Source of the DNA: Acidimicrobiales bacterium
GTDB lineage: Bacteria; Actinomycetota; Acidimicrobiia; Acidimicrobiales; SHLQ01
Length of the DNA: 35,189 nucleotides
NCBI GenBank assembly: GCA_004282895.1
Contig: SHLQ01000010.1
Coordinates: 1 to 35,189 of the forward strand
Reading direction: 5' to 3'
The translations under genes were made by a program, and so were the position numbers. The stretch's first letter is position 1. Each line of letters begins with the position of its first letter. The notes beneath the pieces were generated by a model that saw only the letters and a list, made by a program, of their open reading frames with translations, was not told the DNA's origin and did not search any database. Below are positions 899 to 15,473 of this stretch, piece after piece.

Positions 899-1881
899 CC
901 CAGAAGGTCAGACGAGTTCAGATCCACCCGAAGATCGGAGACTTCGGGCATTTCCTCTCTGATCCGAGCTTCGACCTCGTCCAGAAGTACCTCGATGTCG
1001 TTGGTTTCCAAGTCATCTTCGAGATCGAGGTCGAGCTCCACGCGTACGTGGTTCGCTCCGGAGTGCACGGCGACGAGCGAGTTGAGTGCCTCGACTCCAG
1101 GTGTCCCGCTCACCACGATTCGTAGCCGCTCGAGATCACGCTCGGGCACTGACTGCCCGGTGATCAAGCCACGAGCCTGCGCCATCAAAACGACGGCGGC
1201 GAATGACATCATCACCGCCGCGGCGATGGCGCCGGCGGCATCGAACTCCACCGCGTCCAGTGCCGCGTAGAGAATCAGCGCGACCAATCCGATGATGCTG
1301 GTGGTGGTACCGATGACGTCGCGCAGCAGAGCGGACTTCACGAGCGGCTGGCTCCCCTCCCGGAACCGATCGATCACACCGTGGATGCCGTTCTCGGTCA
1401 GGTTGCGAACACTCAGGCTGACCGCGTAGCTGTTGGTCACAATCGCGAGGACCAGGACACCAATGGCAAGCCAGGAGTCGCTCAGCTCTTGTGGATCGGT
1501 CAGCTGTCGATAGCCCCGCAGCCCAGACAGGCCAGCTCCCACGAACAACATGGCCACCGCGGACAAAACGGCCCAGAAGAACGCCTCCCGCTCGTACCCG
1601 AGGGGATGTTCCTCGTCACGCGGCCGCCCCGCTCTGCGATCTCCAATCACCAGAAAGGCCGAACCAAGCGAGTCGGCAATACCCTGCGCCATCTCCGCGA
1701 AGACAACTGCGCTGCCGGTGATGATCGCCACAATCAGGTTCGTCACGATGTCGAACAAGTCGACCAGGAACGAGACGAGGACGACGCGCCCACGAGTCGG
1801 TGTTGCCATCGATACCCATCTCAGCACAGACCGCGCGAGTTCCCTCAGTTTGGGTGGCCATTTCGGGGCCTTATGGGTCAT
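895..1881 (-). CDS. Cation diffusion facilitator (CDF) family transporter
   Basis: A 328-residue inner-membrane protein with the CDF layout: several hydrophobic helices (VLVSFLVDLFDIVTNLIVAI onward), a loop with HPLGYEREAFFW and a soluble C-terminal domain (VHSGANHVRVELDLDLE...). CDF proteins export divalent metals (Zn, Mn, Fe, Co) in exchange for protons. The HP(Y/L)GYxRE(R/A)xF motif resembles the SLC30A9/ZNT9-like branch. The usual metal-site motifs are altered: TM2 reads AEMAQGIAD, with Gln where His or Asp is common, and the TM5 motif reads LLRDVIG. Metal specificity is therefore unclear. I chose the ATG at 1881 because GAGGG precedes it at good spacing; a GTG at 1926 would add 15 residues with a poor ribosome site, and an ATG at 1809 is also possible. 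It diverges from the giant surface-protein gene with 71 bp between starts. Confidence 0.88.
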   Translation of the reverse strand: MTHKAPKWPPKLRELARSVLRWVSMATPTRGRVVLVSFLVDLFDIVTNLIVAIITGSAVVFAEMAQGIADSLGSAFLVIGDRRAGRPRDEEHPLGYEREAFFWAVLSAVAMLFVGAGLSGLRGYRQLTDPQELSDSWLAIGVLVLAIVTNSYAVSLSVRNLTENGIHGVIDRFREGSQPLVKSALLRDVIGTTTSIIGLVALILYAALDAVEFDAAGAIAAAVMMSFAAVVLMAQARGLITGQSVPERDLERLRIVVSGTPGVEALNSLVAVHSGANHVRVELDLDLEDDLETNDIEVLLDEVEARIREEMPEVSDLRVDLNSSDLLG

Positions 1882-1952
1882 TTGGCCCTCATCGGAGGCC
1901 GTGCGGACTCCGACTGGAACGACCACAAGGCGGATCTACAAGGGACAACCCA

Positions 1953-4900
1953 GTGATACCAAAACGGCGTTCTGCACAGTTCGCGCTCATCGCTATTGCA
2001 TTCGTGATGACGAGTTATGCCTTCTTCGCTCTCATGCCCGCGCAGCCGGCAGGTGCCGGCCCCGGCGACAACTTCTCGCTGACGCTTGCCGACAGTGTTG
2101 GCGGTCGAGCTCTTATCGGTGAAGAAGTGACCATAACCATCAGCGCAACCGGTGACCACTCGTCTGGCGCATATCTCTACAACCTGTCCTTCTCGCAGGT
2201 CCTTCCGCCTGGCGTCTCGTACCTCTCGTCCGACACGCCTCCCAACGAGATCCTCGCGGACGTGCCCGCGGCCAACCAGACAACCCTCATCTGGACAAAC
2301 GTCTCCGATCTACCTGCGAACTCCCAAGCCGCGCTGAGCTTCACTGTCGACACCAACCTCGATGTCGTTGCGGGAACACTGCCCGTAACAGCGATGTTGT
2401 CGCTCGCTCCCACAGCGGTCGCCAGTCTCGACCCCTTCACCATTCCGGACTACAGCACAACAACCGGTCTCTTCACTGGCGACTTCGATGGTCAGGCGTC
2501 CGGGTCACACTCGGTCGAGATCATCCCGTTCCGCGTCAACAAGTCCGCCGAAAGCGAGTTGCTACGTGGCGTTCATGCAAACGGCGTCGATGGCGGATCC
2601 GGATCGGTCGGCACGCTCTACACAATCGAGATCGAGAACAACCCGGACTATCCAACGACCGGTGTCACCCTTCGCGACACCTTGGGTCCGATGCTCGAGT
2701 TCCTCGGGTGCACCGACTACTACCCCACCGACAACACCACTGTCGGCGAGGAATGGCCCGGTTCAGGACCCGTGGCTTCAGGACCCTGCCCAGGGCCGGT
2801 CTTCACTCCCACGTCCGTTGCCACGGGCGGCGCCGGCGAAACGATCGTTGATTGGAACGTCGGCTCACTCGCTCCTGGACAAACCGCAACGGTCACGTAC
2901 AACGCCGGTATCCCACTGAACGCGAACGCTCCCTTTGCCGTGCCGCCGACCGGCCTCGCGCATGGCCGAAACCTCGACAACAACACCGGCGCCAGCACAG
3001 GCGAACCAGACGCGGTCCCCGGCACCGATCCGGAACTCTTGTCCGCTCCGGAAGCAGCGGTGGACAACACCGCCGTCGCGACCGGTACCTACAGCCCATC
3101 TGGCGCAACGAGCAGTGAGTCCAGCGTGCTCATGACCGAGGCCGAGGATCTGAAACTTACGAAGTCGATGACTGGCCCGTTGAGCCACGGCTCGATCATC
3201 ACCACGGTCCTGACCATCGAGACCGGCGAATATCGGGACTTCTCCAATCTCGTCGTTCGGGATCTGTTGCCGTCCGGACTGTGTTTCCTCGGCACCTTCA
3301 ACAGCGACCTGTCCGGATCTGACTGGAACACGACGGACTGCGCCGGCGCCGGAGGCACCCCGGCGACCATCAACGGAGCTCCCGCCGACCTCGCTCGAGT
3401 TCGCGAGTTGCCCGACGGAGGGCCCTACGGAACCGGGCGCATGGAACTTGTTTGGGACTTCGCCGATCCGGACAATGCGGTCCTCGCCGACCTCGACAGC
3501 GATGGCACCATCACCATTCAGTATCAATCGGTCGTGCGACAGAGCTACCGCGGTGGATTGGCAAGCCTCCCTGGGGAACCTGTGCTCGCAGGTGACACCG
3601 TCAGCAACGCAGCTGAGGTTTCCGGCCCCGACATGGTTGCCAGCGCCGCGCTACCAGCCGATCCGGCCGACCCCGATGGCGGCGCCGACGGCGACACGGC
3701 CTCGGACTCGATCACCAATCAGGGTGCAACCATCAACAAACGCGTCTCGGTGAAGACCGGACCGATGGCCAACAACGCCGGCACTACGGGAAGCACCTGC
3801 TTCGATGACTACGCAACGATCACCTGGTCGGAAGCCGATCCGAGTGCCGAGCTCGGCTACGGACCCGGTGACATCGTGTGCTTTGAACTGAACGCCGGGT
3901 TCCCCGGAAACGTGAACTACGAGGGCACGACCATCCAGGACCTGATGCCCCCCGGGTACAACTACATCGCCGGCTCTGCGCAACGTATCGCTGCGGGTGA
4001 CACCCTTCCCACAACGACATTCACCGAGTCGGACGAGCTCGTTACCTTCACGGTGGGCGGATCGGGAGATGTCGGCAACAACGGCAACACCTTCCAATGG
4101 GTGGTGGCAGCCGACATCACGGACAACGCTCTCGGTGCTGCGCTCGACATCAACGCCAACCTCGAGAAGCTCGTGCATAACAACAACTCGGGACTCGTCT
4201 TCCAACTTCGAGACCAGACCGAGGCCGAATGGACCGAACCCCAGGTTCGAGTCGCGGTCGGCGTCGAGTCGGTCAATGGAAGCCCCTCGGCTGGACCTGA
4301 CGCCGATGGTTCGCTCGGCGGGTCATCCACTGCGACCGAGGTGACCGGCAGCGATGTCGTGACCTATCGAGTCGATGTGTGGAACACCGGCAACACCGAC
4401 GCGCTGAACACGGTCATCCAGGACGTGATACCACCCGAGTTCACCTGTGCCGACATCTCGAACATCAGCGACGGTGGCACGTGTGTGGGCGGCGTCATTA
4501 CCTGGCCCGCGGCAACGGTGGCCTCCTCGACCGGCGGGGCGGATATGACCCCAGACGACGAGACGACCGCTCCCATCACCTACACGTACGACCTGACCGT
4601 GCCCGACTCGGTCGACCCCTCCAACGCCTACACCAACACCGCCGGCGCCGCGACGTATCAAGGCGCAACGAACACCGGACCCTACGACTACTACCCGGAG
4701 GACAACGTCGACCCGGCAAATGCGGCGCTCGAGAACACCGACTCCGCCCACGACCCCGCGTACATAGTTATTGCTGACCCAGACATTGTGATCGTTCAGC
4801 AGAGTGGAATCTCTCAGACCGGCAACGCCGCGAACCCGTCTCCCGCGTCCACCGACGATCAGGCCACGATCGGCGAGATCATCGAGTACCAGATCACTGC

Positions 4901-7900
4901 CACCATTCCCCAGGGCACGACGATCTACGACGCCACGCTCACCGCAGACCTTCCGGCCGGCGTCACCTGGTTCACCGGCAACGGTCTCTTCGGCGGAGTC
5001 GTAGGCGACCTGCAGCCGACAGCCACGAGCCCAACCGGTTCGGCCGGCATCATCACCGGCACGATTTCCGAAGCAGCCGGAACGGTGACCTACACGATCC
5101 CCGCGCCGTACACGAACGCCGGCGGGTCGGGCGATGATCAGGTGACGGTCACGTTCTACGGCATCGTCGATGATGTCGCCGGAAATTCGGCTTCAACGCC
5201 GACGGTCCTGTCCATCTCCGCCGATCTCGACTGGAACGACGCAGCAGCAGTAGCCGCTCCGACCGTTTCCGCCCCGTCGATCGACACCGAGGTTGTCGAG
5301 CCGAACCTGACAATCGTCAAGGGTCACACCGTGCCCATCGGAACCGAGGTCGAATCGGGTGACCCGATCACCTATGAGATCACGATTGGCAACCCATCGA
5401 CGCCGGGCAACGTCTCGGTCGCCCACGATCTCGAAATCGTCGATGTAATACCGGCCGGTATCACTCCGATCGGCGTGAGCGGCGCCGTCAGCGCAGACGG
5501 TGATCTCGTTCCTTCGATCAGCATCACTCCTGCCGGGTCGTTCGACGGGGTGTGGTCGGAAACGAACCACACGGTCACGTGGACGCCCGACGATGTCTTC
5601 GATCCGGATGAAGTACTTCAGTTCTCCTTCGACGCCGAGGTCGACGACCCGGCGGTCTCTTCGGGTGTTCTGAACAACACTGCGGACGCCACAGTGCATT
5701 CTCTCGACCAGAACGTCTTCCCCATCACCGATCCGAACGCTGCCGCTGGACGTTCCTACACCGTGTCCGATGACGACACGCTCACCCTGCCAGAGGCTTC
5801 ACTTTCCAAGGACATCGAACCATTCGACGCCGGCGATCCCACCAACGACCGCAGCAGCTTCGCCGTCGGCGAGCCGGCCGACTATCAGCTCACCGTCTTC
5901 ATTCCGAACGGCACCGTGATCTACGACGCGACGGTGTTCGACACCCTCCCGGTCGGGCTGGCGTTCGACAGCTTCGGCACGATCACTCCCGACCCCACGT
6001 GTTTCATGTGGGACTCCGTCGCTGGCGCCAGCACTGGCCTTCCCCTAACCGCCGGTGACGTCGAACAGTTCAATCCAGCCGGTGGTGATCCAGCGGTTGC
6101 GGGATGGTATGTCGGCGACTTGTATGCAGCCGGCGACTGTCAGATCAGCTTCGAGTACACCACCCACGTCACCTCCAGCACGGCCGACACCGACGTGGTG
6201 CCCAACGACGCGTTGTTCAACTGGAACGCATCCAGCATGATCGCCAACGAGTCGCCGACCGCTCTCGAACCGGGCTTCGACGCACCTGGCGCCGCCGCGT
6301 TCGCCGATGGCACCGACCCAGCATCGGAATCCTTCACAGTCGTAGAGCCACTCCTCGAGATCGACCAGGACGTGACCGCGGCCGATGGAAGCCGACTCGT
6401 ATCGCCCACCTGCGACACGACACCAGGCAACAACAACGGTGCTGCCGACGACCCCGACGGCCTTGCCGCGGACGGCTGCGATGTCGTTCCAGGTGGCGAG
6501 GTCACGTACACCGTCACCGTTTCCAGCATCGGAACAACCGACGCCCACGACGTGACCACGGTCGAGACCGTGCCTGTCGGAATCACCCCATTGTCAATCG
6601 CCGGAGGTGCGCCCGTCACGACAACCGGCGACACGATCACGGGCGCATCGGGATCGGTGGGAGTCTGGGACGAGACCGCACGTACGATCACCTGGCTGAC
6701 GGCGGGCCCGCTCGCGCCGGGCACGACGGCAACACTCGATTGGAACGCAACCCTCGATGCTTCCGACTCCTTGACTCGCGGTCAGGACTTCACGACCCAA
6801 ATCGACGTCGACACATACTTTGCGCTGACCGGGGCGGACCGCAGCCAGATCACCACCGACAACCCGGCCAATGCCGACATCATCACCTACGGGAACGGCA
6901 CCACCGCGACACGAGGTGTCGTGACTCCCGACATCAACACGATCGAGGTGCACTTCCCCGAGCTCGACATCGTTACCGTCCCCGCCAGCGGCCAGGACAT
7001 CACGGACGTACTCCTCAACCAACCCTTCACGTGGGAGATCACCGTCACCAACATCGACGCCACCGCCTCGGCCTACAACGTCGACGTCGTCGATGTACTG
7101 CCCGAAGGTTGGACGTTCGATCCCGGCTCCGTCGCCATCGTCACCCCGTTCGGTCCGGCGACGACCGACCCTGGCTGCGCGGCCGACGTCGGAGTTTGCG
7201 CCGATCCCTCAGCTCTCAACATCGAAACACTCACCTGGACCGACCTTGTCAGCGGACCGACCGAACCCCTCGGCCCAGGCGAGACCATCACGATCAGCTT
7301 CACCGCCACACCACAGGGCGCAGCGTTGACGTCCACGCCGGCAATCGGCGACGCCCACACCGGCTACGACGGCGGTGCCGGCCCGGTTCACACGAACCAG
7401 GCATCAACGTCCGGCGAAGACGCCAGCGGCTCGCCGAGCTGCTGCGATCCGGATGGTGCTGGAGTTGCTCCGGCGGAGTTCTATACGGACACCGACTCCA
7501 CCGATGTCTGGATTGCCCGTGCCGACATCGAAGTCGACAAGACCATCACACCGATCGAAACCGACGCTGACCCCAACAACGGTCCGTACTGGTTCGGCGC
7601 CTGGGCGTACTACACCGTCACGGTCACGAACGTTGGCCCCGACGCCGCGACCGGCGTCGACGTGGCAGAGATTCTCGATCCTGTCGGACTCGAGTTTGAT
7701 TCCGTCGACTCGATCGACGCCGGCACATTCGATAACACGACCAACATCTGGACCGTTGGCGACATGGCCAACGCCGACTCCTTCCAACTCGTATTGCGAA
7801 CGCGCCTCGTTGAAGTCGGGCCGGTCACAAACATCGCCCAGAACGCAGCGGCTGATCAGTACGACTCCGACTCGACCCCGAACAACAGCGTCGCCACAGA

Positions 7901-10900
7901 GGACGACCAGGCGTCGGTAACGATTGAGGTCGTACCGACCTCCCTTGGTGACTACGTCTGGCTCGATCTGAACGCCGACGGAGTGCAGGACCCAGGCGAG
8001 CCCGGCATACCCGGCGTCATGCTTGACCTCACGTGGCTCGATCCCGCCACTGGTGCACCCCAGACCTTCACCGTCACAACCGCAGCTGACGGCTCATACG
8101 GTGTGCCCGCGGCCGCGAACCTGCCGACCTTCACGGACATCACGGTGACCGTCGATCCGGCATCAGCGAACCTCCTGGGCCTTGCCCCCAGTTTCGACCG
8201 GGACGGAACAGCAGACGGCGTCGCCACCGACCAAGTCACCCCCGCCGACACCATCCTCCCCGACGGATCGTTCGCAGACCTGGCGTTCGACTTCGGCTAC
8301 ACCCCCGACGGTGCTCAGTTGCTGGGCGACACGATCTGGTGGGACCAGGACAACTCCGCAGATGCGACCAACGGTGTCGGTGAAGTTGCGATGTCCGGAA
8401 TCACGGTCACCGCCACGTGGGCCGGATGGGACGGCACCATCGGTACCGCAGACGACCTCGACTTCACCCGGGTAACGGGTGCCCTTGGGGACTACCTGTT
8501 CGACGACATTCCACCTGGCCAGTACGAGGTTTCCGTCACGACAACCGACCTGCCCGCGGGGCTCGACACGCCGACGTTTGACCTCGATGGTGTTGCCAGC
8601 GCATCGACCACGACCCTGACCGTCAACCCAACCGACGCCCTACTCGATGTGGACTTCTCCTATCGCGGCATCGGCCAGCTCGGCGACACCGTGTGGTTTG
8701 ACCACAACGCCAACGGAGTTGTGGATGCCAGCGAGCCGGGACTCGGGGACGTCGATGTCACCGCCAGCTGGTCCGGCCCCGACGGCATCACTGGAACAAC
8801 TGACGATCTCGCCTTCACCATCACCACCGACCCCGACGGAGCATGGCTGTTCGAGAACATGCCACACGGCGAGTACGTCATTACGGTCGACCCGGCGTCG
8901 CTGCCAACTGGCATGGTGCCGACCTTCGACCAGGACGGCATCGGAACCCCGAACGTCTCGATCGCCACGCTCGCGACCGGAGCGGAGACCGACCTCGACC
9001 AGGACTTCGGCTACCGCGGTGCCGGCACGATCGGTGACACCGTCTTCTTTGATGTCGATGGTGTCGAAGCCGACGGAGGGCTCGACGCAGGCGATGCCCC
9101 AATCGTGGGCGCGACCGTGACAGTTGTCTGGGACGGTGCGGATGGAGTCGCCGGGACCGGCGACGACTTCACATACAACGCGACGACAATCGTTGGCGGC
9201 GCCTACAGCGTGACGGATCTGCCTCATGGCAACTACACGGTGACCGTCGATCCGGCCTCCTTGCCCGCCGGACTCATGACACCCACGTTTGACCCGGATG
9301 GCATTGCGACAGCGAACACCTCCGCCACCCGATTGACCAGCACCGCTCCCGATGACCTCGCTCAGGACTTCGCCTACACCGGAAGTGGCGTAGGCCAGAT
9401 CGGTGACACCATCTACTTCGATCAGAACAACGACGGCATCCAGGACGTCGGTGAAGTTGGCTTCACCGGAGTCACGGTGAACCTGACCTGGTTCGGTCCA
9501 GATGGTGCGCTCGGCGGAACCGACGATGTCATTCAAACGACGACAACTGGTGTCGACGGCGCGTACCTGTTCGACAACCTGCCGGATGGCAACTTCCTCG
9601 TCGCGGTCGATGACACAACACTTCCGACGGGTCTGACCCCAAGCGCCGACTTTGACGGCATCGGTTCGCCGAACGAGTCGCTCGTTTCACTCGATGCCAC
9701 CACGCCTTCGAGTTTCGACCAGGACTTTGGCTACGCCGGCGTCGGCTCACTCGGTGACGTTGTGTGGCTGGACGTCGACAACTCCGGTACGAACACCATT
9801 GATACGGGCGAGATCGGGATTCCCGGCGTGGCACTCACCGTCGTGTGGACCAACCCGCAGGGCGACGACGTGACCTTCGCAACGACGACAGGCGCCGATG
9901 GAACCTACCTGATCCCACACCTTCCGCATGGCACGTACAACATCGCGGTTGACCCGCTGACGTTGCCCGGTGGGATCAGCCAGACATACGACGTCGACGG
10001 CCTCGCCACTCCAGACACGAGTGCCGTGCTCGTCGATGCTCTCAACCCGGACAACCTCGACCAGGACTTCTCCTACGCCGGCGTTGGCTCCCTTGGTGAC
10101 ACGGTCTGGTTCGACCAGAACGCCGACGGCGGAACCGATCCTGTCGGCTCCGGCATCTTCGATGACCAGGACCAGCCGCTCGCTGGCGTCGACGTTGTTG
10201 TCACCTGGTCCGGATTCGATGGTGTGGCTGAAGACGACCCCGCAACCCCCGGCATCGACGAGGGTGCAGACGACCTCGTGCACATAGCGACGACGAACGC
10301 CGCAGGCGAATGGACCGTCGCCAACCTGCCTCACGGTGACTACACCGTCGCCGTGGATACTGCGACGCTGCCTGCTGGCATTGTCGTTCCCACCCATGAC
10401 ATGGACGGTCTCACCACGCCCGACATGAGCTCGGTGACGCTCGATGCGCTTCTCACCGACGACCCGACACACGACTTCTCCTACACCGGCGCCGGCCAGG
10501 TCGGGAGCATTGTGTGGTTCGATCTGAACGGCGATGCCGTCATCGATCCGCTCGATGTCCCACTGGCCGGAGTCACGCTGAACATCGAGTTCGTCGGACC
10601 GGAAGGAGCCATCGTGACCGACTCCACCGTGTCCGGAATCGATGGCAGCTACCAGTTCGTCAATCTGCCCTTCGACACGCCGATCACGATCACGGTCGAC
10701 AACACGACGTTGCCAGCCGGCTTCGTACCCGTGTGGGACGCCGACGATGCGGTGCTGACGCCGCACGTGTCTGTAGCAACCTTGTCGGACAGCGCACCGA
10801 TCGATCCCAACCAGAACTTCGCCTACAACGGAACCGGCTCCATCGGCGACACCATTTGGTACGACCGGGACAACTCTGCGACCGACACGGTGGATGCCAC

Positions 10901-12542
10901 CGATGTGGTGATTCCTGGTGTTGGCGTGACCGTCACCTGGTCCAACCCGACCGGTGCGGCCGATCTCACCACGTTCACCTCAACCGACGCGGCGGGCATG
11001 TATCTGTTCGAGAACCTTCCCCACGGCGACTACACGGTCACCGTCGAGCCGAGCACGCTTCCTGGCGGAGTCATTCCCACGTTCGATGGAGACGGCACAC
11101 TTACCGTCGACACGAGCATCGTTCCGCTGGACGACGTGCTGAACGTACAACTCGATCAGGACTTCGCATACACCGGTACGGGCAGTATCGGAGACACGAT
11201 CTGGCGTGACGAGAACGGCGACGGCATCGTCGATACCGACGAGCTGCCGATCGAGGGTGTTGTGCTGAACCTCAACTACGTCGATCCGATCACCGGGATC
11301 GTCATGGCCGACACCACCACATCCGACGCGCTGGGCAACTACATCTTCGACCACCTGCCTGCTGGTGACTACACGATTACGATCGATCCGGCGTCACTGC
11401 CCGCAGGGTTCGTGCCGACCCACGACCCTGACGGAACGGACTCGATCCACGTGGCTTCGCTCACGCTGGCTCCCGGAACCGCTCAGAAGGATGTCGACTT
11501 TGGGTATCGCCCTGAGGCCGACCTCTCGATTGATATCTCCCATGTTGGTGACGTCGAAGTCGGCGCAGAGAACATCTTCACCGCCACCATTCACAACGAT
11601 GGCCCGGCCGCCAGCGGGCCGGTGATGGTCACGACGGTGCTGCCACCTGGTGTCAGCCTCGTGGCATCACCCAGCCCGGACTGGAGCTGCGTTGAGGTCA
11701 GCGGCGGTGTTCAGTGCACGCTGATCAACCCAGTCACAGGCGTGCCGGCCGACATCCCTGCGGGTGAGACGCTCGCGTTTGACCTCGCCGTTGACGTCGC
11801 CCCCCATGCGGCTCCGGAAATCACGATCGACGCAATCGTCTTCTCCGAAATCGTTGACCCGAACCCGGACAACGACACTGCCAGCGACACCGCGGCGACT
11901 CCGTTGTCCGTGTTGACAGTCGAAACGACGTTGAACGACGACCTGGTGGCTGGCGGCGATGCGACCTACACGATCGACGTCGCGAACCTCGGGGCGGATT
12001 CGACGCGCGGTCCGGTTGTCGTCCAGTTCGAGCTCCCGCCGGGTATGACGCTGGACTCCGCCTCGAGCGAGGCCGCTGGCGTCACGTGCAACATCGACGG
12101 CTCAAGCAGCTTGTCTGCTGCAGCGTCCCCATCCTCAACACTTGTGACCTGTACCAACCCGACGCAGTTCGCACCAGGCGAAGGTTGGTCAATCGATCTG
12201 AAGGTGGATGTTGCCTCCTCCGCCGGTGGCCAGAACCTCACAACAACCACGACGATCTCTGGCGGCAACCTCGTGAACGGCGCGCAGCTGCCGCCGGCCA
12301 CCATGGACGCCATCTACGCCGACCTTCAGGATCCGGACAGCCTCCTCGGGGCCAACCTCGGGCTCGACCCCGCCGTTGCGGCGATCAACATCGTGGTCGA
12401 CTCCGCCCCCGTCGAGATCGTTCAACCGCTTGCGTTCACCGGGGCGACCGTTCTGTCGTTGATTGGCATCGGCATCGGCTTGATCCTCATCGGCGCCGTC
12501 GCGTTGTGGTTCGCCGACGACCGTCGCCGACTACTCGGCTAG
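1953..12542 (+). CDS. Giant LAxTG-anchored cell-surface protein with DUF11-like and SdrD-B-like repeats
   Basis: The protein has 3,529 residues if it starts at the GTG at 1953, which is preceded by AAGGGA with 7 nt spacing. The frame is open from 1800, but that region overlaps the divergent CDF gene and the signal peptide begins right after 1953. Order: Sec signal peptide (residues 1-35; KRR, hydrophobic core, cleavage near AGA|GP); about eleven DUF11-like beta-sandwich domains starting near residues 39, 193, 400, 592, 765, 945, 1119, 1283, 1468, 1671 and 1859; ten SdrD-B-like repeats (about 1995-3188, each opening with GxxGDTVWFD-type sequence); two more DUF11-like domains (about 3190 and 3319); the sorting signal LAFTG (3493-3497), a hydrophobic helix and the tail DDRRRLLG. 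LAxTG followed by helix and basic tail is the class E sortase pattern of Actinobacteria. It is strongly acidic and rich in Asp and Thr. The likely role is adhesion or a surface coat, possibly Ca2+-stabilised as in SdrD; that role is inferred. Confidence 0.93.
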   Translation: MIPKRRSAQFALIAIAFVMTSYAFFALMPAQPAGAGPGDNFSLTLADSVGGRALIGEEVTITISATGDHSSGAYLYNLSFSQVLPPGVSYLSSDTPPNEILADVPAANQTTLIWTNVSDLPANSQAALSFTVDTNLDVVAGTLPVTAMLSLAPTAVASLDPFTIPDYSTTTGLFTGDFDGQASGSHSVEIIPFRVNKSAESELLRGVHANGVDGGSGSVGTLYTIEIENNPDYPTTGVTLRDTLGPMLEFLGCTDYYPTDNTTVGEEWPGSGPVASGPCPGPVFTPTSVATGGAGETIVDWNVGSLAPGQTATVTYNAGIPLNANAPFAVPPTGLAHGRNLDNNTGASTGEPDAVPGTDPELLSAPEAAVDNTAVATGTYSPSGATSSESSVLMTEAEDLKLTKSMTGPLSHGSIITTVLTIETGEYRDFSNLVVRDLLPSGLCFLGTFNSDLSGSDWNTTDCAGAGGTPATINGAPADLARVRELPDGGPYGTGRMELVWDFADPDNAVLADLDSDGTITIQYQSVVRQSYRGGLASLPGEPVLAGDTVSNAAEVSGPDMVASAALPADPADPDGGADGDTASDSITNQGATINKRVSVKTGPMANNAGTTGSTCFDDYATITWSEADPSAELGYGPGDIVCFELNAGFPGNVNYEGTTIQDLMPPGYNYIAGSAQRIAAGDTLPTTTFTESDELVTFTVGGSGDVGNNGNTFQWVVAADITDNALGAALDINANLEKLVHNNNSGLVFQLRDQTEAEWTEPQVRVAVGVESVNGSPSAGPDADGSLGGSSTATEVTGSDVVTYRVDVWNTGNTDALNTVIQDVIPPEFTCADISNISDGGTCVGGVITWPAATVASSTGGADMTPDDETTAPITYTYDLTVPDSVDPSNAYTNTAGAATYQGATNTGPYDYYPEDNVDPANAALENTDSAHDPAYIVIADPDIVIVQQSGISQTGNAANPSPASTDDQATIGEIIEYQITATIPQGTTIYDATLTADLPAGVTWFTGNGLFGGVVGDLQPTATSPTGSAGIITGTISEAAGTVTYTIPAPYTNAGGSGDDQVTVTFYGIVDDVAGNSASTPTVLSISADLDWNDAAAVAAPTVSAPSIDTEVVEPNLTIVKGHTVPIGTEVESGDPITYEITIGNPSTPGNVSVAHDLEIVDVIPAGITPIGVSGAVSADGDLVPSISITPAGSFDGVWSETNHTVTWTPDDVFDPDEVLQFSFDAEVDDPAVSSGVLNNTADATVHSLDQNVFPITDPNAAAGRSYTVSDDDTLTLPEASLSKDIEPFDAGDPTNDRSSFAVGEPADYQLTVFIPNGTVIYDATVFDTLPVGLAFDSFGTITPDPTCFMWDSVAGASTGLPLTAGDVEQFNPAGGDPAVAGWYVGDLYAAGDCQISFEYTTHVTSSTADTDVVPNDALFNWNASSMIANESPTALEPGFDAPGAAAFADGTDPASESFTVVEPLLEIDQDVTAADGSRLVSPTCDTTPGNNNGAADDPDGLAADGCDVVPGGEVTYTVTVSSIGTTDAHDVTTVETVPVGITPLSIAGGAPVTTTGDTITGASGSVGVWDETARTITWLTAGPLAPGTTATLDWNATLDASDSLTRGQDFTTQIDVDTYFALTGADRSQITTDNPANADIITYGNGTTATRGVVTPDINTIEVHFPELDIVTVPASGQDITDVLLNQPFTWEITVTNIDATASAYNVDVVDVLPEGWTFDPGSVAIVTPFGPATTDPGCAADVGVCADPSALNIETLTWTDLVSGPTEPLGPGETITISFTATPQGAALTSTPAIGDAHTGYDGGAGPVHTNQASTSGEDASGSPSCCDPDGAGVAPAEFYTDTDSTDVWIARADIEVDKTITPIETDADPNNGPYWFGAWAYYTVTVTNVGPDAATGVDVAEILDPVGLEFDSVDSIDAGTFDNTTNIWTVGDMANADSFQLVLRTRLVEVGPVTNIAQNAAADQYDSDSTPNNSVATEDDQASVTIEVVPTSLGDYVWLDLNADGVQDPGEPGIPGVMLDLTWLDPATGAPQTFTVTTAADGSYGVPAAANLPTFTDITVTVDPASANLLGLAPSFDRDGTADGVATDQVTPADTILPDGSFADLAFDFGYTPDGAQLLGDTIWWDQDNSADATNGVGEVAMSGITVTATWAGWDGTIGTADDLDFTRVTGALGDYLFDDIPPGQYEVSVTTTDLPAGLDTPTFDLDGVASASTTTLTVNPTDALLDVDFSYRGIGQLGDTVWFDHNANGVVDASEPGLGDVDVTASWSGPDGITGTTDDLAFTITTDPDGAWLFENMPHGEYVITVDPASLPTGMVPTFDQDGIGTPNVSIATLATGAETDLDQDFGYRGAGTIGDTVFFDVDGVEADGGLDAGDAPIVGATVTVVWDGADGVAGTGDDFTYNATTIVGGAYSVTDLPHGNYTVTVDPASLPAGLMTPTFDPDGIATANTSATRLTSTAPDDLAQDFAYTGSGVGQIGDTIYFDQNNDGIQDVGEVGFTGVTVNLTWFGPDGALGGTDDVIQTTTTGVDGAYLFDNLPDGNFLVAVDDTTLPTGLTPSADFDGIGSPNESLVSLDATTPSSFDQDFGYAGVGSLGDVVWLDVDNSGTNTIDTGEIGIPGVALTVVWTNPQGDDVTFATTTGADGTYLIPHLPHGTYNIAVDPLTLPGGISQTYDVDGLATPDTSAVLVDALNPDNLDQDFSYAGVGSLGDTVWFDQNADGGTDPVGSGIFDDQDQPLAGVDVVVTWSGFDGVAEDDPATPGIDEGADDLVHIATTNAAGEWTVANLPHGDYTVAVDTATLPAGIVVPTHDMDGLTTPDMSSVTLDALLTDDPTHDFSYTGAGQVGSIVWFDLNGDAVIDPLDVPLAGVTLNIEFVGPEGAIVTDSTVSGIDGSYQFVNLPFDTPITITVDNTTLPAGFVPVWDADDAVLTPHVSVATLSDSAPIDPNQNFAYNGTGSIGDTIWYDRDNSATDTVDATDVVIPGVGVTVTWSNPTGAADLTTFTSTDAAGMYLFENLPHGDYTVTVEPSTLPGGVIPTFDGDGTLTVDTSIVPLDDVLNVQLDQDFAYTGTGSIGDTIWRDENGDGIVDTDELPIEGVVLNLNYVDPITGIVMADTTTSDALGNYIFDHLPAGDYTITIDPASLPAGFVPTHDPDGTDSIHVASLTLAPGTAQKDVDFGYRPEADLSIDISHVGDVEVGAENIFTATIHNDGPAASGPVMVTTVLPPGVSLVASPSPDWSCVEVSGGVQCTLINPVTGVPADIPAGETLAFDLAVDVAPHAAPEITIDAIVFSEIVDPNPDNDTASDTAATPLSVLTVETTLNDDLVAGGDATYTIDVANLGADSTRGPVVVQFELPPGMTLDSASSEAAGVTCNIDGSSSLSAAASPSSTLVTCTNPTQFAPGEGWSIDLKVDVASSAGGQNLTTTTTISGGNLVNGAQLPPATMDAIYADLQDPDSLLGANLGLDPAVAAINIVVDSAPVEIVQPLAFTGATVLSLIGIGIGLILIGAVALWFADDRRRLLG
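7937..11515 (+). repeat. Ten tandem SdrD-B-like coding repeats inside the giant gene
   Basis: Ten diverged coding units of about 330-410 bp. Each encodes a start such as GSLGDTVWFDQNADG, then a (I/L)xGV beta strand, a DGxYxFxNLPHGxYTVTVD block, PAGxxPTxDxDG and an end such as LDQDFxYxG. Units begin near 7937, 8314, 8671, 9025, 9394, 9745, 10086, 10497, 10840 and 11182. The Asp/Asn-rich openings resemble the Ca2+-binding loops known from staphylococcal SdrD B domains. The units are diverged rather than identical, so the array looks old. Confidence 0.85.
12429..12539 (+). other. C-terminal cell-wall sorting signal (LAFTG, membrane helix, basic tail)
   Basis: This segment encodes residues 3493-3529 of the giant protein: LAFTG, a hydrophobic helix of about 24 residues and DDRRRLLG at the end. 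It fits the tripartite signal for sortase-mediated attachment to peptidoglycan. The LAxTG variant is known as the preferred substrate of class E sortases. No sortase gene lies in this window. Confidence 0.85.
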
Positions 12543-14454: not shown

Positions 14455-14504
14455 ATACCATGGTCGCTGCGTGCCATCCAGGGGCATCGCAGTAAAGGGA
14501 CACC

Positions 14505-14975
14505 ATGGTGCTTCAAGACCTCACGATGACCTCACTCACCGGCGAGGACGTCGCCTTGAGTCAGTTCGGAAACGACTTCAACCTCATTGTCAACGTCGCC
14601 AGTCGTTGAGGCGCCACGCCTCAGTACGCAGGTCTGCGTGCGCTCCACAACGAGATCGACGGTCTGAACGTTCTCGGCTTTCCCTGCAACCAGTTCGGTG
14701 GACAAGAGCCGGGCACCCCGGAGGAAATCCTTGAGTTCGTGACCTCGAAGTACGACGTCAACTTCCCGATGTTCGCCAAGATCGACGTGAACGGCGAGAA
14801 TGCCTGCGAGCTCTACAACCGGCTCAAGGAAGCACAGCCGGGCGAAGGCGAGTCGGCCGATATCGGCTGGAACTTCGAGAAGTTCCTCGTTGACGGATCC
14901 GACACGGTCGTTGCCCGATGGGGCACCGGCGTAACCCCCGAACAGATCCGAGACCAGCTCGCCGACTACATGTAG
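14505..14975 (+). CDS. Selenocysteine-containing glutathione peroxidase (in-frame TGA at 14607-14609 read as Sec35)
   Basis: From the ATG at 14505 (AAAGGGA 5 nt upstream) the frame runs 157 codons to TAG, with one internal TGA. The product would be 156 residues, a normal glutathione peroxidase length. The TGA falls in NVASR-U-GATPQY, where homologues have NVAS(K/Q)(C/U)GxT, so it is exactly the peroxidatic residue. The rest of the catalytic tetrad is intact: Gln67 in FPCNQFGGQEPG, Trp122 and Asn123 in WNFEKFL. Homology continues in phase on both sides, so decay or sequencing error is unlikely. A hairpin resembling a bacterial SECIS follows the TGA. The resolving Cys of thioredoxin-dependent relatives (F-C-x-x-x-Y) is Val79 here, so the reductant is probably a low-molecular-weight thiol. 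The role is reduction of H2O2 or lipid hydroperoxides in the cytosol. Decoding needs SelA, SelB, SelC and SelD elsewhere in the genome. Confidence 0.87.
14607..14641 (+). promoter_or_regulatory. UGA (Sec) codon with bacterial SECIS-like hairpin
   Basis: After the TGA (14607-14609), GTACGC (14624-14629) pairs with GCGTGC (14636-14641), five Watson-Crick pairs and one G-U, closing the six-base loop AGGTCT (14630-14635). The loop starts 20 nt after the TGA and has G at its second position, which fits the published bacterial SECIS consensus (loop 16-37 nt from UGA, G within the first two loop bases). The core GCAGGTCTGC matches what I recall of the E. coli fdhF element, where the hairpin lies 11 nt rather than 14 nt from the UGA. 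A second small stem, GAGGCG/CGCCTC (14608-14622), overlaps the TGA. Confidence 0.72.
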
Positions 14976-15053
14976 GCCCGCCAGGTCCGAGTGTTTACCC
15001 GGCGGCCATGTCCTGTAAATCTATTGTTCGTGACGACCAATCAACCTATGGAG

Positions 15054-15473
15054 ATGTCTGCATCCGACGTGCCCGCCGTTCTCTTCCTCTGTGTCCACAA
15101 CGCTGGGCGATCACAAATGGGAGCCGGATGGTTGCGTCACCTCGCAGGAGACCGGGTTTCCGTCTACTCCGGCGGATCCAACCCGGCATCGGAGACCAAC
15201 CCGGCCGCAGTGGAAGCCATGGCCGAAGTCGGTATCGACATCTCGAGTTACGAACCGCAACTCTGGACCGATGACATCGTGCGTCAATGCGACGTGATCA
15301 TCTCGATGGGCTGTGGTGATGTCTGCCCCGTCTATCCGGCCACTCGCCATGAGGACTGGGAGCTGACGGATCCCGCCGGACAGGGCCTCGACCTCGTACG
15401 AACCGTCCGCGATGAGATTCGTGATCGAGTGTCGACGCTGATCGAAAGCCTCGACCTCCCACCGACCGACTGA
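15054..15473 (+). CDS. arsC: Arsenate reductase, low-molecular-weight phosphatase fold, mycothiol-type
   Basis: A protein of about 139 residues with the LMW phosphatase-like ArsC core: VLFLCVHNAGRSQMG (P-loop with catalytic Cys13), YSGGSNPA, NPAAVEAMAEVGIDIS, then MGCGDVCPVYP and EDWELTDPAGQG, a combination typical of actinobacterial arsenate reductases that use mycothiol. It reduces arsenate to arsenite in the cytosol. The start is uncertain: ATG at 15054 (MSASDVPA) or the in-frame ATG at 15048; an in-frame GTG at 14991 would add a non-homologous leader. It lies 78 nt downstream of the peroxidase in the same direction, so the two may share an oxidant or thiol-stress context. No arsenite pump or ArsR is visible in the window. 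Confidence 0.9.
   Translation: MSASDVPAVLFLCVHNAGRSQMGAGWLRHLAGDRVSVYSGGSNPASETNPAAVEAMAEVGIDISSYEPQLWTDDIVRQCDVIISMGCGDVCPVYPATRHEDWELTDPAGQGLDLVRTVRDEIRDRVSTLIESLDLPPTD

Follow-up and report, generated by a model that had tools for sequence, protein, structure and literature searches.

How is it that the gene of a glutathione peroxidase (GPx) carries a stop codon exactly where the catalytic residue is expected, and what would be the product of such a gene? The question is raised by a coding sequence at 14505..14975 on the forward strand of the window, that is, the whole stretch of 35,189 nucleotides analyzed here, which belongs to a metagenome-assembled genome (MAG) of 3.48 Mb in 316 contigs, 85% complete and with 4.14% contamination. 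The frame opens with ATG at 14505, preceded by a candidate ribosome-binding site read from the sequence (AAAGGG, 14494-14499), and closes with TAG at 14973-14975. Its only other stop is a TGA at 14607-14609, codon 35, as had been claimed in an earlier note made from the letters of the window alone. With this TGA translated as selenocysteine (Sec, U), a product of 156 amino acids including U35 is obtained (MVLQ...NVASR-U-GATPQYAGLR...), which matches the Pfam family GSHPx (PF00255) with an E value of 4.9e-35 and 119.8 bits against a cut-off of 27. This match is to the full read-through product, and in relatives the frame is intact on either side of the TGA, in agreement with the earlier note. 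The shorter frame of 78 residues from 14739 begins with codon 79, a GTG, at which position the Cys-containing homologues have their resolving Cys. The comparative evidence indicates that the internal UGA is almost certainly read as Sec.

The alignment of homologues with Sec and with Cys, a check that the earlier note had proposed, was built from 151 loci, which after removal of repeated sequences left 136 distinct proteins, without animal sequences. Codon 35 is TGA in 43 of these rows and a Cys codon, TGC or TGT, in the remaining 93; the TGA falls on the peroxidatic residue, as had been suggested. The catalytic tetrad of the window protein would be U35, Q67, W122 and N123; the last three had been described as intact, and the tetrad is invariant in all 136 rows. 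By sequence, the nearest solved chains are GPx proteins, the best being Schistosoma 2v1m. An AlphaFold2 model computed from a 46-sequence alignment (mean pLDDT 93.8) predicts a thioredoxin-like GPx fold, and the five best chains retrieved with Foldseek, among poplar GPX5, Schistosoma GPx and human GPX4, have query-normalized TM-scores of 0.92-0.95 (0.94-0.95 for Schistosoma GPx and 0.94 for human GPX4, 2obi).

A pseudogene, a sequencing error or a random nonsense mutation would likewise leave one stop in a frame that is intact elsewhere, and the earlier note had considered the last of these improbable at this site. An even sample of a larger group provided 198 genomes of the same order; a GPx match (E <= 0.001) is present in 104, and in 33 of these 104 the gene has exactly one internal stop, a TGA. 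It lies at codon 35 in all 30 genes that were fetched first (L100-L129), and also in those of the three remaining genomes (G178 = L136, G191 = L168, G192 = L169). Altogether the TGA occupies codon 35 in 43 distinct genes, mostly from separate genomes, whose flanking frame and tetrad are kept. This conservation refutes the notion of decay or error, which retains next to no probability, and chance is excluded by the frequency of the TGA form among the GPx-bearing genomes of the order.

A Sec-containing GPx (Sec-GPx) implies a full Sec-decoding system, and the absence of such a system had been named in the earlier note as what would speak against it. The search, in which selB, selC and selD were looked for in the MAG of the window only, found all the components: a tRNA-Sec (selC; 66.7 bits, gathering score 47, with anticodon tca according to ARAGORN), selA (380.5 bits for the whole protein, cut-off 267.9), selB (300.9 bits for the whole protein, cut-off 242) and selD (368.8 bits, cut-off 125). 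selA and selB adjoin each other on contig 41, and selB, selC and selD all lie on contigs other than that of the GPx gene; in two single-contig relatives (G006 and G134), Sec-GPx and selA are found on the same molecule. In the selD gene itself (L018:1483-2523), residue 17 falls on an in-frame TGA (SHGAGUGCK). Downstream of it, with 32 nt between UGA and loop, is a hairpin whose loop reads GGUCG, and selD is thus a candidate for a second selenoprotein of the same genome.

UGA-decoding tRNAs exist in other bacteria. It could accordingly be asked whether UGA35 is read as Trp, Gly or Cys through a variant code or a suppressor tRNA. UGA is, however, a normal stop in the window, where it ends 11 of the 20 long open reading frames picked, including the ArsC-like, amidase and CPA2 genes. 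Moreover, among nine tRNA genes in the eight candidate loci examined, the sole UCA anticodon is that of tRNA-Sec, selA and selB are present, and the Cys found at codon 35 in the 93 TGA-less homologues fits Sec. We regard reassignment as very improbable.

Shortly after the UGA, a near-invariant block, CAGTACGCAGGTCTGCGT, which encodes QYAGLR, is found at 14622..14639 on the forward strand. It is exact in 39 of the 43 Sec rows; of the exceptions, two end in CGC, one begins with CAA and one is divergent (L031). By contrast, GCAGGTCTG occurs in 0/93 Cys rows. Over the 198 genomes of the order, the pattern CARTACGCAGGTCTGCGY gives one match each in 33, which are the same 33 that carry the TGA form of GPx, and its backwards control gave 0 matches among the rows listed. 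The block would form the bulk of a bacterial SECIS (bSECIS) hairpin at 14624..14641 on the same strand, with a 7-bp stem (14624-14630 paired to 14635-14641) and the apical loop GGUC at 14631-14634. Its calculated energy is -9.9 kcal/mol and 21 nt separate the UGA from the loop. These values lie within the limits given in the cited part of PMC13188914 (loop of 3-9 nt, stem of 4-16 bp, G in the first two loop positions, spacing of 16-37 nt, MFE <= -7.5), the loop having 4 nt and beginning with GG. No Rfam family reaches its gathering score in the whole window.

Each of the seven pairs is formed in 41-43 of the Sec rows. When any hairpin of >=4 bp with MFE <= -7.5 in a 30-nt segment is accepted, 40/43 Sec rows pass, and 16/93 Cys rows do so by chance, the three Sec rows that miss -7.5 kcal/mol being the two with CGC and the one with CAA; the mean energies are -9.6 kcal/mol for Sec genes and -5.7 for Cys genes. 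Compared with synonymous shuffles, the gain in stability is modest (mean z -1.03, with 4/43 Sec rows at or under 5%). The choice of codons is more telling: heterozygosity is 0-0.09 in the block, whereas 49 other conserved sites in these Sec genes average 0.42 (P 4e-5, shared descent ignored); Cys genes show no such freezing at the three block sites that qualify (P 0.65, shared descent likewise ignored). The Ala codon of the block is GCA in 42/43 Sec rows, while ten codons upstream GCC, GCG, GCA and GCT are used 25, 12, 5 and 1 times, respectively.

A counterpart is the SECIS of Escherichia coli fdhF, which has the identical core GCAGGTCTGC, in the same frame (GCA GGT CTG) and with the same GGUC apical loop. 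The two differ in their predicted folds, for the stem of the fdhF element leaves one U unpaired and is interrupted in its lower part, whereas the stem of the GPx hairpin is an unbroken one, and the distance from UGA to GGUC is 18 nt in fdhF as against 21 in GPx. A second copy of the core was sought in the genome with the pattern GCAGACCTGCN{10,26}TCA, which gave two matches. The other one (C285) has its TGA out of frame and sits in what reads as an M16-peptidase-like frame; since the backwards control of this pattern also gives two matches, it is attributed to chance.

The RNA signal may have left its mark on the protein. The CGT codon at 14637..14639 (forward strand), in the 3′ arm of the hairpin, encodes Arg45, and Arg is present in 43/43 Sec rows; in the 93 Cys rows residue 45 is Glu in 71, Gln in 21 and Val in one. 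At position 46 the Sec rows have no residues other than Ala and Thr, and the codons of both give the purine followed by C that closes the stem. We infer that Arg45 and residue 46 would be forced by the RNA signal.

It is possible, besides, that the UGA sits in a hairpin of its own. The segment 14607..14623, on the forward strand, is predicted to fold as UGAGGCG-CCA-CGCCUCA, with the UGA in the 5′ arm. Counted from the U of UGA, an unbroken run of five pairs or more can be formed in 28 of the 43 Sec rows, of three in one and of only two in 14. Where the fourth codon after the UGA encodes Pro, which is so in 35 cases among the Sec genes, CCT is used in 26, against 9/88 at the same site in Cys genes and 26/331 Pro codons elsewhere in the same Sec genes (P 4e-18 for the latter comparison, descent ignored), and it is CCT that allows CCUCA to pair with UGAGG and that would place the UGA within this structure. 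The predicted energies beat synonymous shuffles somewhat (mean z -1.47, with 16/43 rows at or under 5%). Because no compensatory signal or covariation appears in the 43 Sec rows (for pair 6-12, 338/1000 shuffles are as good), we rate this hairpin as tentative.

The Sec and Cys rows differ at yet another site of the protein. A resolving Cys is present at column 79 in 93/93 Cys rows and in 0/43 Sec rows, which have Ala (28), Val (13) or Ile (2); in the window, the codon is GTG at 14739..14741 (forward strand), encoding Val79. This column aligns with the Cys of yeast HYR1, that of poplar GPX5 being one column later, and all 43 Sec rows are devoid of Cys from column 70 to column 95. In the helix that contains column 79, where a thioredoxin-dependent 2-Cys Gpx-like peroxiredoxin has its resolving Cys, the window protein has Val79. 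Without a resolving Cys, an intramolecular disulfide and a thioredoxin cycle are unlikely, and a selenol-thiol cycle like that of animal GPX4 is suggested as the best reading.

Nevertheless, another Cys might take over, so that the enzyme, with Sec inserted, would still depend on thioredoxin. C61 is present in 43/43 Sec rows, C101 in 12/43, and a Cys at column 26 in 24/43. But C61 is kept equally in the Cys enzymes (92/93), alongside Cys79, and is therefore no substitute peculiar to the Sec enzymes; C101 is Ala in 29/43 Sec rows, and the window protein has Asn at column 26. Taken with the stretch of columns 70-95 free of Cys, these data make such a substitute unlikely. The reading that we prefer, with a probability of roughly 0.95, is that of a GPX4-like monomeric Sec-GPx, in which Sec would be inserted under the direction of SelB and the SECIS and the selenium would be reduced by an external thiol.

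According to this proposal, SelB, carrying Sec-tRNA, would bind the hairpin with the GGUC loop 21 nt after UGA35, and this binding would direct the insertion of Sec in place of termination. The selenol of Sec35 would then reduce hydroperoxides, and the oxidized selenium would probably be reduced by a low-molecular-weight or other external thiol rather than through an intramolecular disulfide and thioredoxin. As to the nature of this thiol, mycothiol is a plausible donor and the best candidate. The genome of the window encodes an MshA-like full-length protein (390.9 bits against a cut-off of 462.5, the next glycosyltransferase having 95.9) and an MshC-like protein (450.9 bits against an equivalog cut-off of 485.1). 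As both remain below their equivalog cut-offs, and as the MshC model finds some match in 198/198 genomes of the order, with 0 above the cut-off, mycothiol is not established. For glutathione synthetase there is a weak match (75 bits against a cut-off of 299). The finding thus raises the question of what reduces a selenol peroxidase in a lineage where 0/12 genomes have a glutathione synthetase above the cut-off.

The distribution of the gene within the order connects it to the Sec trait. Besides the 33 genomes with the TGA form, 71 of the 104 with a GPx match lack an internal TGA; in this set, the catalytic codon was read in eight (L147, L149, L152, L153, L156, L157, L165 and L167), one genome (G008) has an internal TAG, and in another (G129) the match starts at residue 81. 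selA is present in 32/33 Sec-GPx genomes, against 25/71 genomes with a TGA-less GPx and 60/94 without GPx, counts that include three (G055, G070 and G172) of the five selA matches scoring under the family cut-off and leave out the other two (G021 and G180). The one Sec-GPx genome in which selA was not found (G170) is 83% complete. From the 60 genomes that have selA and no GPx, it follows that the Sec trait must often be kept by other selenoproteins. Each of the 33 TGA genomes has a single GPx match, and none of them has, consequently, a detectable second GPx; a TGA-less GPx is found in 0/33 of them against 71/165 of the others (P 1e-7, relatedness ignored).

Beyond the order, the TGA form becomes scarce. 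Of 396 genomes drawn from the phylum, 58 have a match at E <= 1e-35 and six the TGA form, the genome of the window included, all from the same order, and the earlier statement that bacterial Sec-GPx is uncommon holds for what lies outside this order in the sample searched. Among named genomes, where the best relatives are Acidimicrobiales, at least 587 relatives were matched and the best 80 loci retained. The TGA form appears in 10 of these 80, some of them from Myxococcota, a 'Deltaproteobacteria' MAG, a Pseudomonadales MAG and a gammaproteobacterial MAG. A maximum-likelihood tree of the 136 proteins sets the TGA rows apart from all others by one branch (ultrafast bootstrap 96, SH-aLRT 95; 96% of 200 bootstrap trees). 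On these sequences, the window gene is a member of a Sec-GPx clade and not an isolated gene. The pattern, in a tree whose root is not fixed, fits a single origin of Sec-GPx followed by spread between phyla, and given that all Sec rows are on one branch, the joint change of Sec, SECIS, Arg45 and loss of the resolving Cys may have been a single event.

Directly downstream of the GPx gene, at 14991..15473 on the forward strand (likely start ATG 15054), lies an ArsC-like gene of the LMW phosphatase family (Pfam LMWPc, 1.2e-17; NCBIfam arsenate reductase, 3.1e-26, below the cut-off), of which no counterpart (E <= 1e-6) was detected when the sequence around the gene was searched, out to 1.5 or 4 kb, in 39 Sec-GPx relatives. 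A conserved neighborhood was sought in these same 39 and rejected, the yield being distant matches only, two to MFS and one to amidase. The window also contains, at 1800-12542, a single open reading frame of 3,580 amino acids with ten SdrD B-like, four DUF11 and four carboxypeptidase-regulatory stretches, whose predicted product is a very large repetitive surface-type protein. Among viruses, the TGA was found in 0/55 GPx loci (L174-L228), 51 of which have Cys at the catalytic site, all 51 with Cys79. In the four other viral loci, the peroxidatic position is occupied by Ala or Thr and column 79 by Val. As for plasmids, 175 records have a GPx match, with less than 60% identity at the best place in each.

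That bacteria may have Sec-GPx is known already. A bacterial GPX-like selenoprotein family (PF00255, motif UxxT, with WP_010957027.1 as an example, and including a Treponema denticola member and Global Ocean Sampling sequences) is tabulated in the cited parts of PMC13188914 and PMC9312934; those of PMC1794560 count one Sec-GPx, with Gpx in the row of T. denticola, and in those of PMC2398784 the first count in the GPx row is 40, which we take as Sec sequences. The window gene is like these in having Sec at the peroxidatic residue. The cited passages contain no such lineage, SECIS constraint or status of the resolving Cys. In the open-licence literature, we found no report on Sec-GPx in Acidimicrobiales or their kin. 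The present analysis contributes the clade, the constraint from its SECIS and the absence of the resolving Cys.

With animal GPX4 and Schistosoma Sec-GPx, the window protein shares a length without oligomerization loops, the tetrad and the lack of a resolving Cys; Schistosoma 2v1m has the same Val at column 79, and the model has a TM-score of 0.94 to both 2v1m and 2obi. It differs from them in the bacterial in-frame SECIS placed beside the UGA. The bacterial Cys-based Gpx-like peroxiredoxins, represented here by the 93 Cys rows, are of the same family and have the same tetrad, but they keep the resolving Cys that the Sec clade lacks. It could be further imagined that a bacterial lineage independently evolved the one-selenol mechanism of the GPX4 type, having gained Sec and lost the resolving Cys, with mycothiol as donor, an Arg45 dictated by the SECIS and possibly a hairpin that sequesters the UGA. 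In this complete form the scenario is tentative, and we hold the odds to be somewhat against it.

In the cited parts of PMC10084747, bacterial Gpx-like proteins are classed as Cys-based and thioredoxin-dependent, with a resolving Cys in over 99% of a microbiome Gpx-like set, and PMC8614756 holds that Sec is specifically incorporated in animal GPx. The bacterial Sec-GPx described earlier already agree poorly with such a view, and the Sec-GPx clade is a large and clear exception both to that classification, as there given, and to the latter argument; it has likely been overlooked because gene callers stop at UGA. It allows peroxidases with Sec and with Cys to be compared inside one order of bacteria, and in it, furthermore, a residue of the protein appears to be set by an RNA signal.
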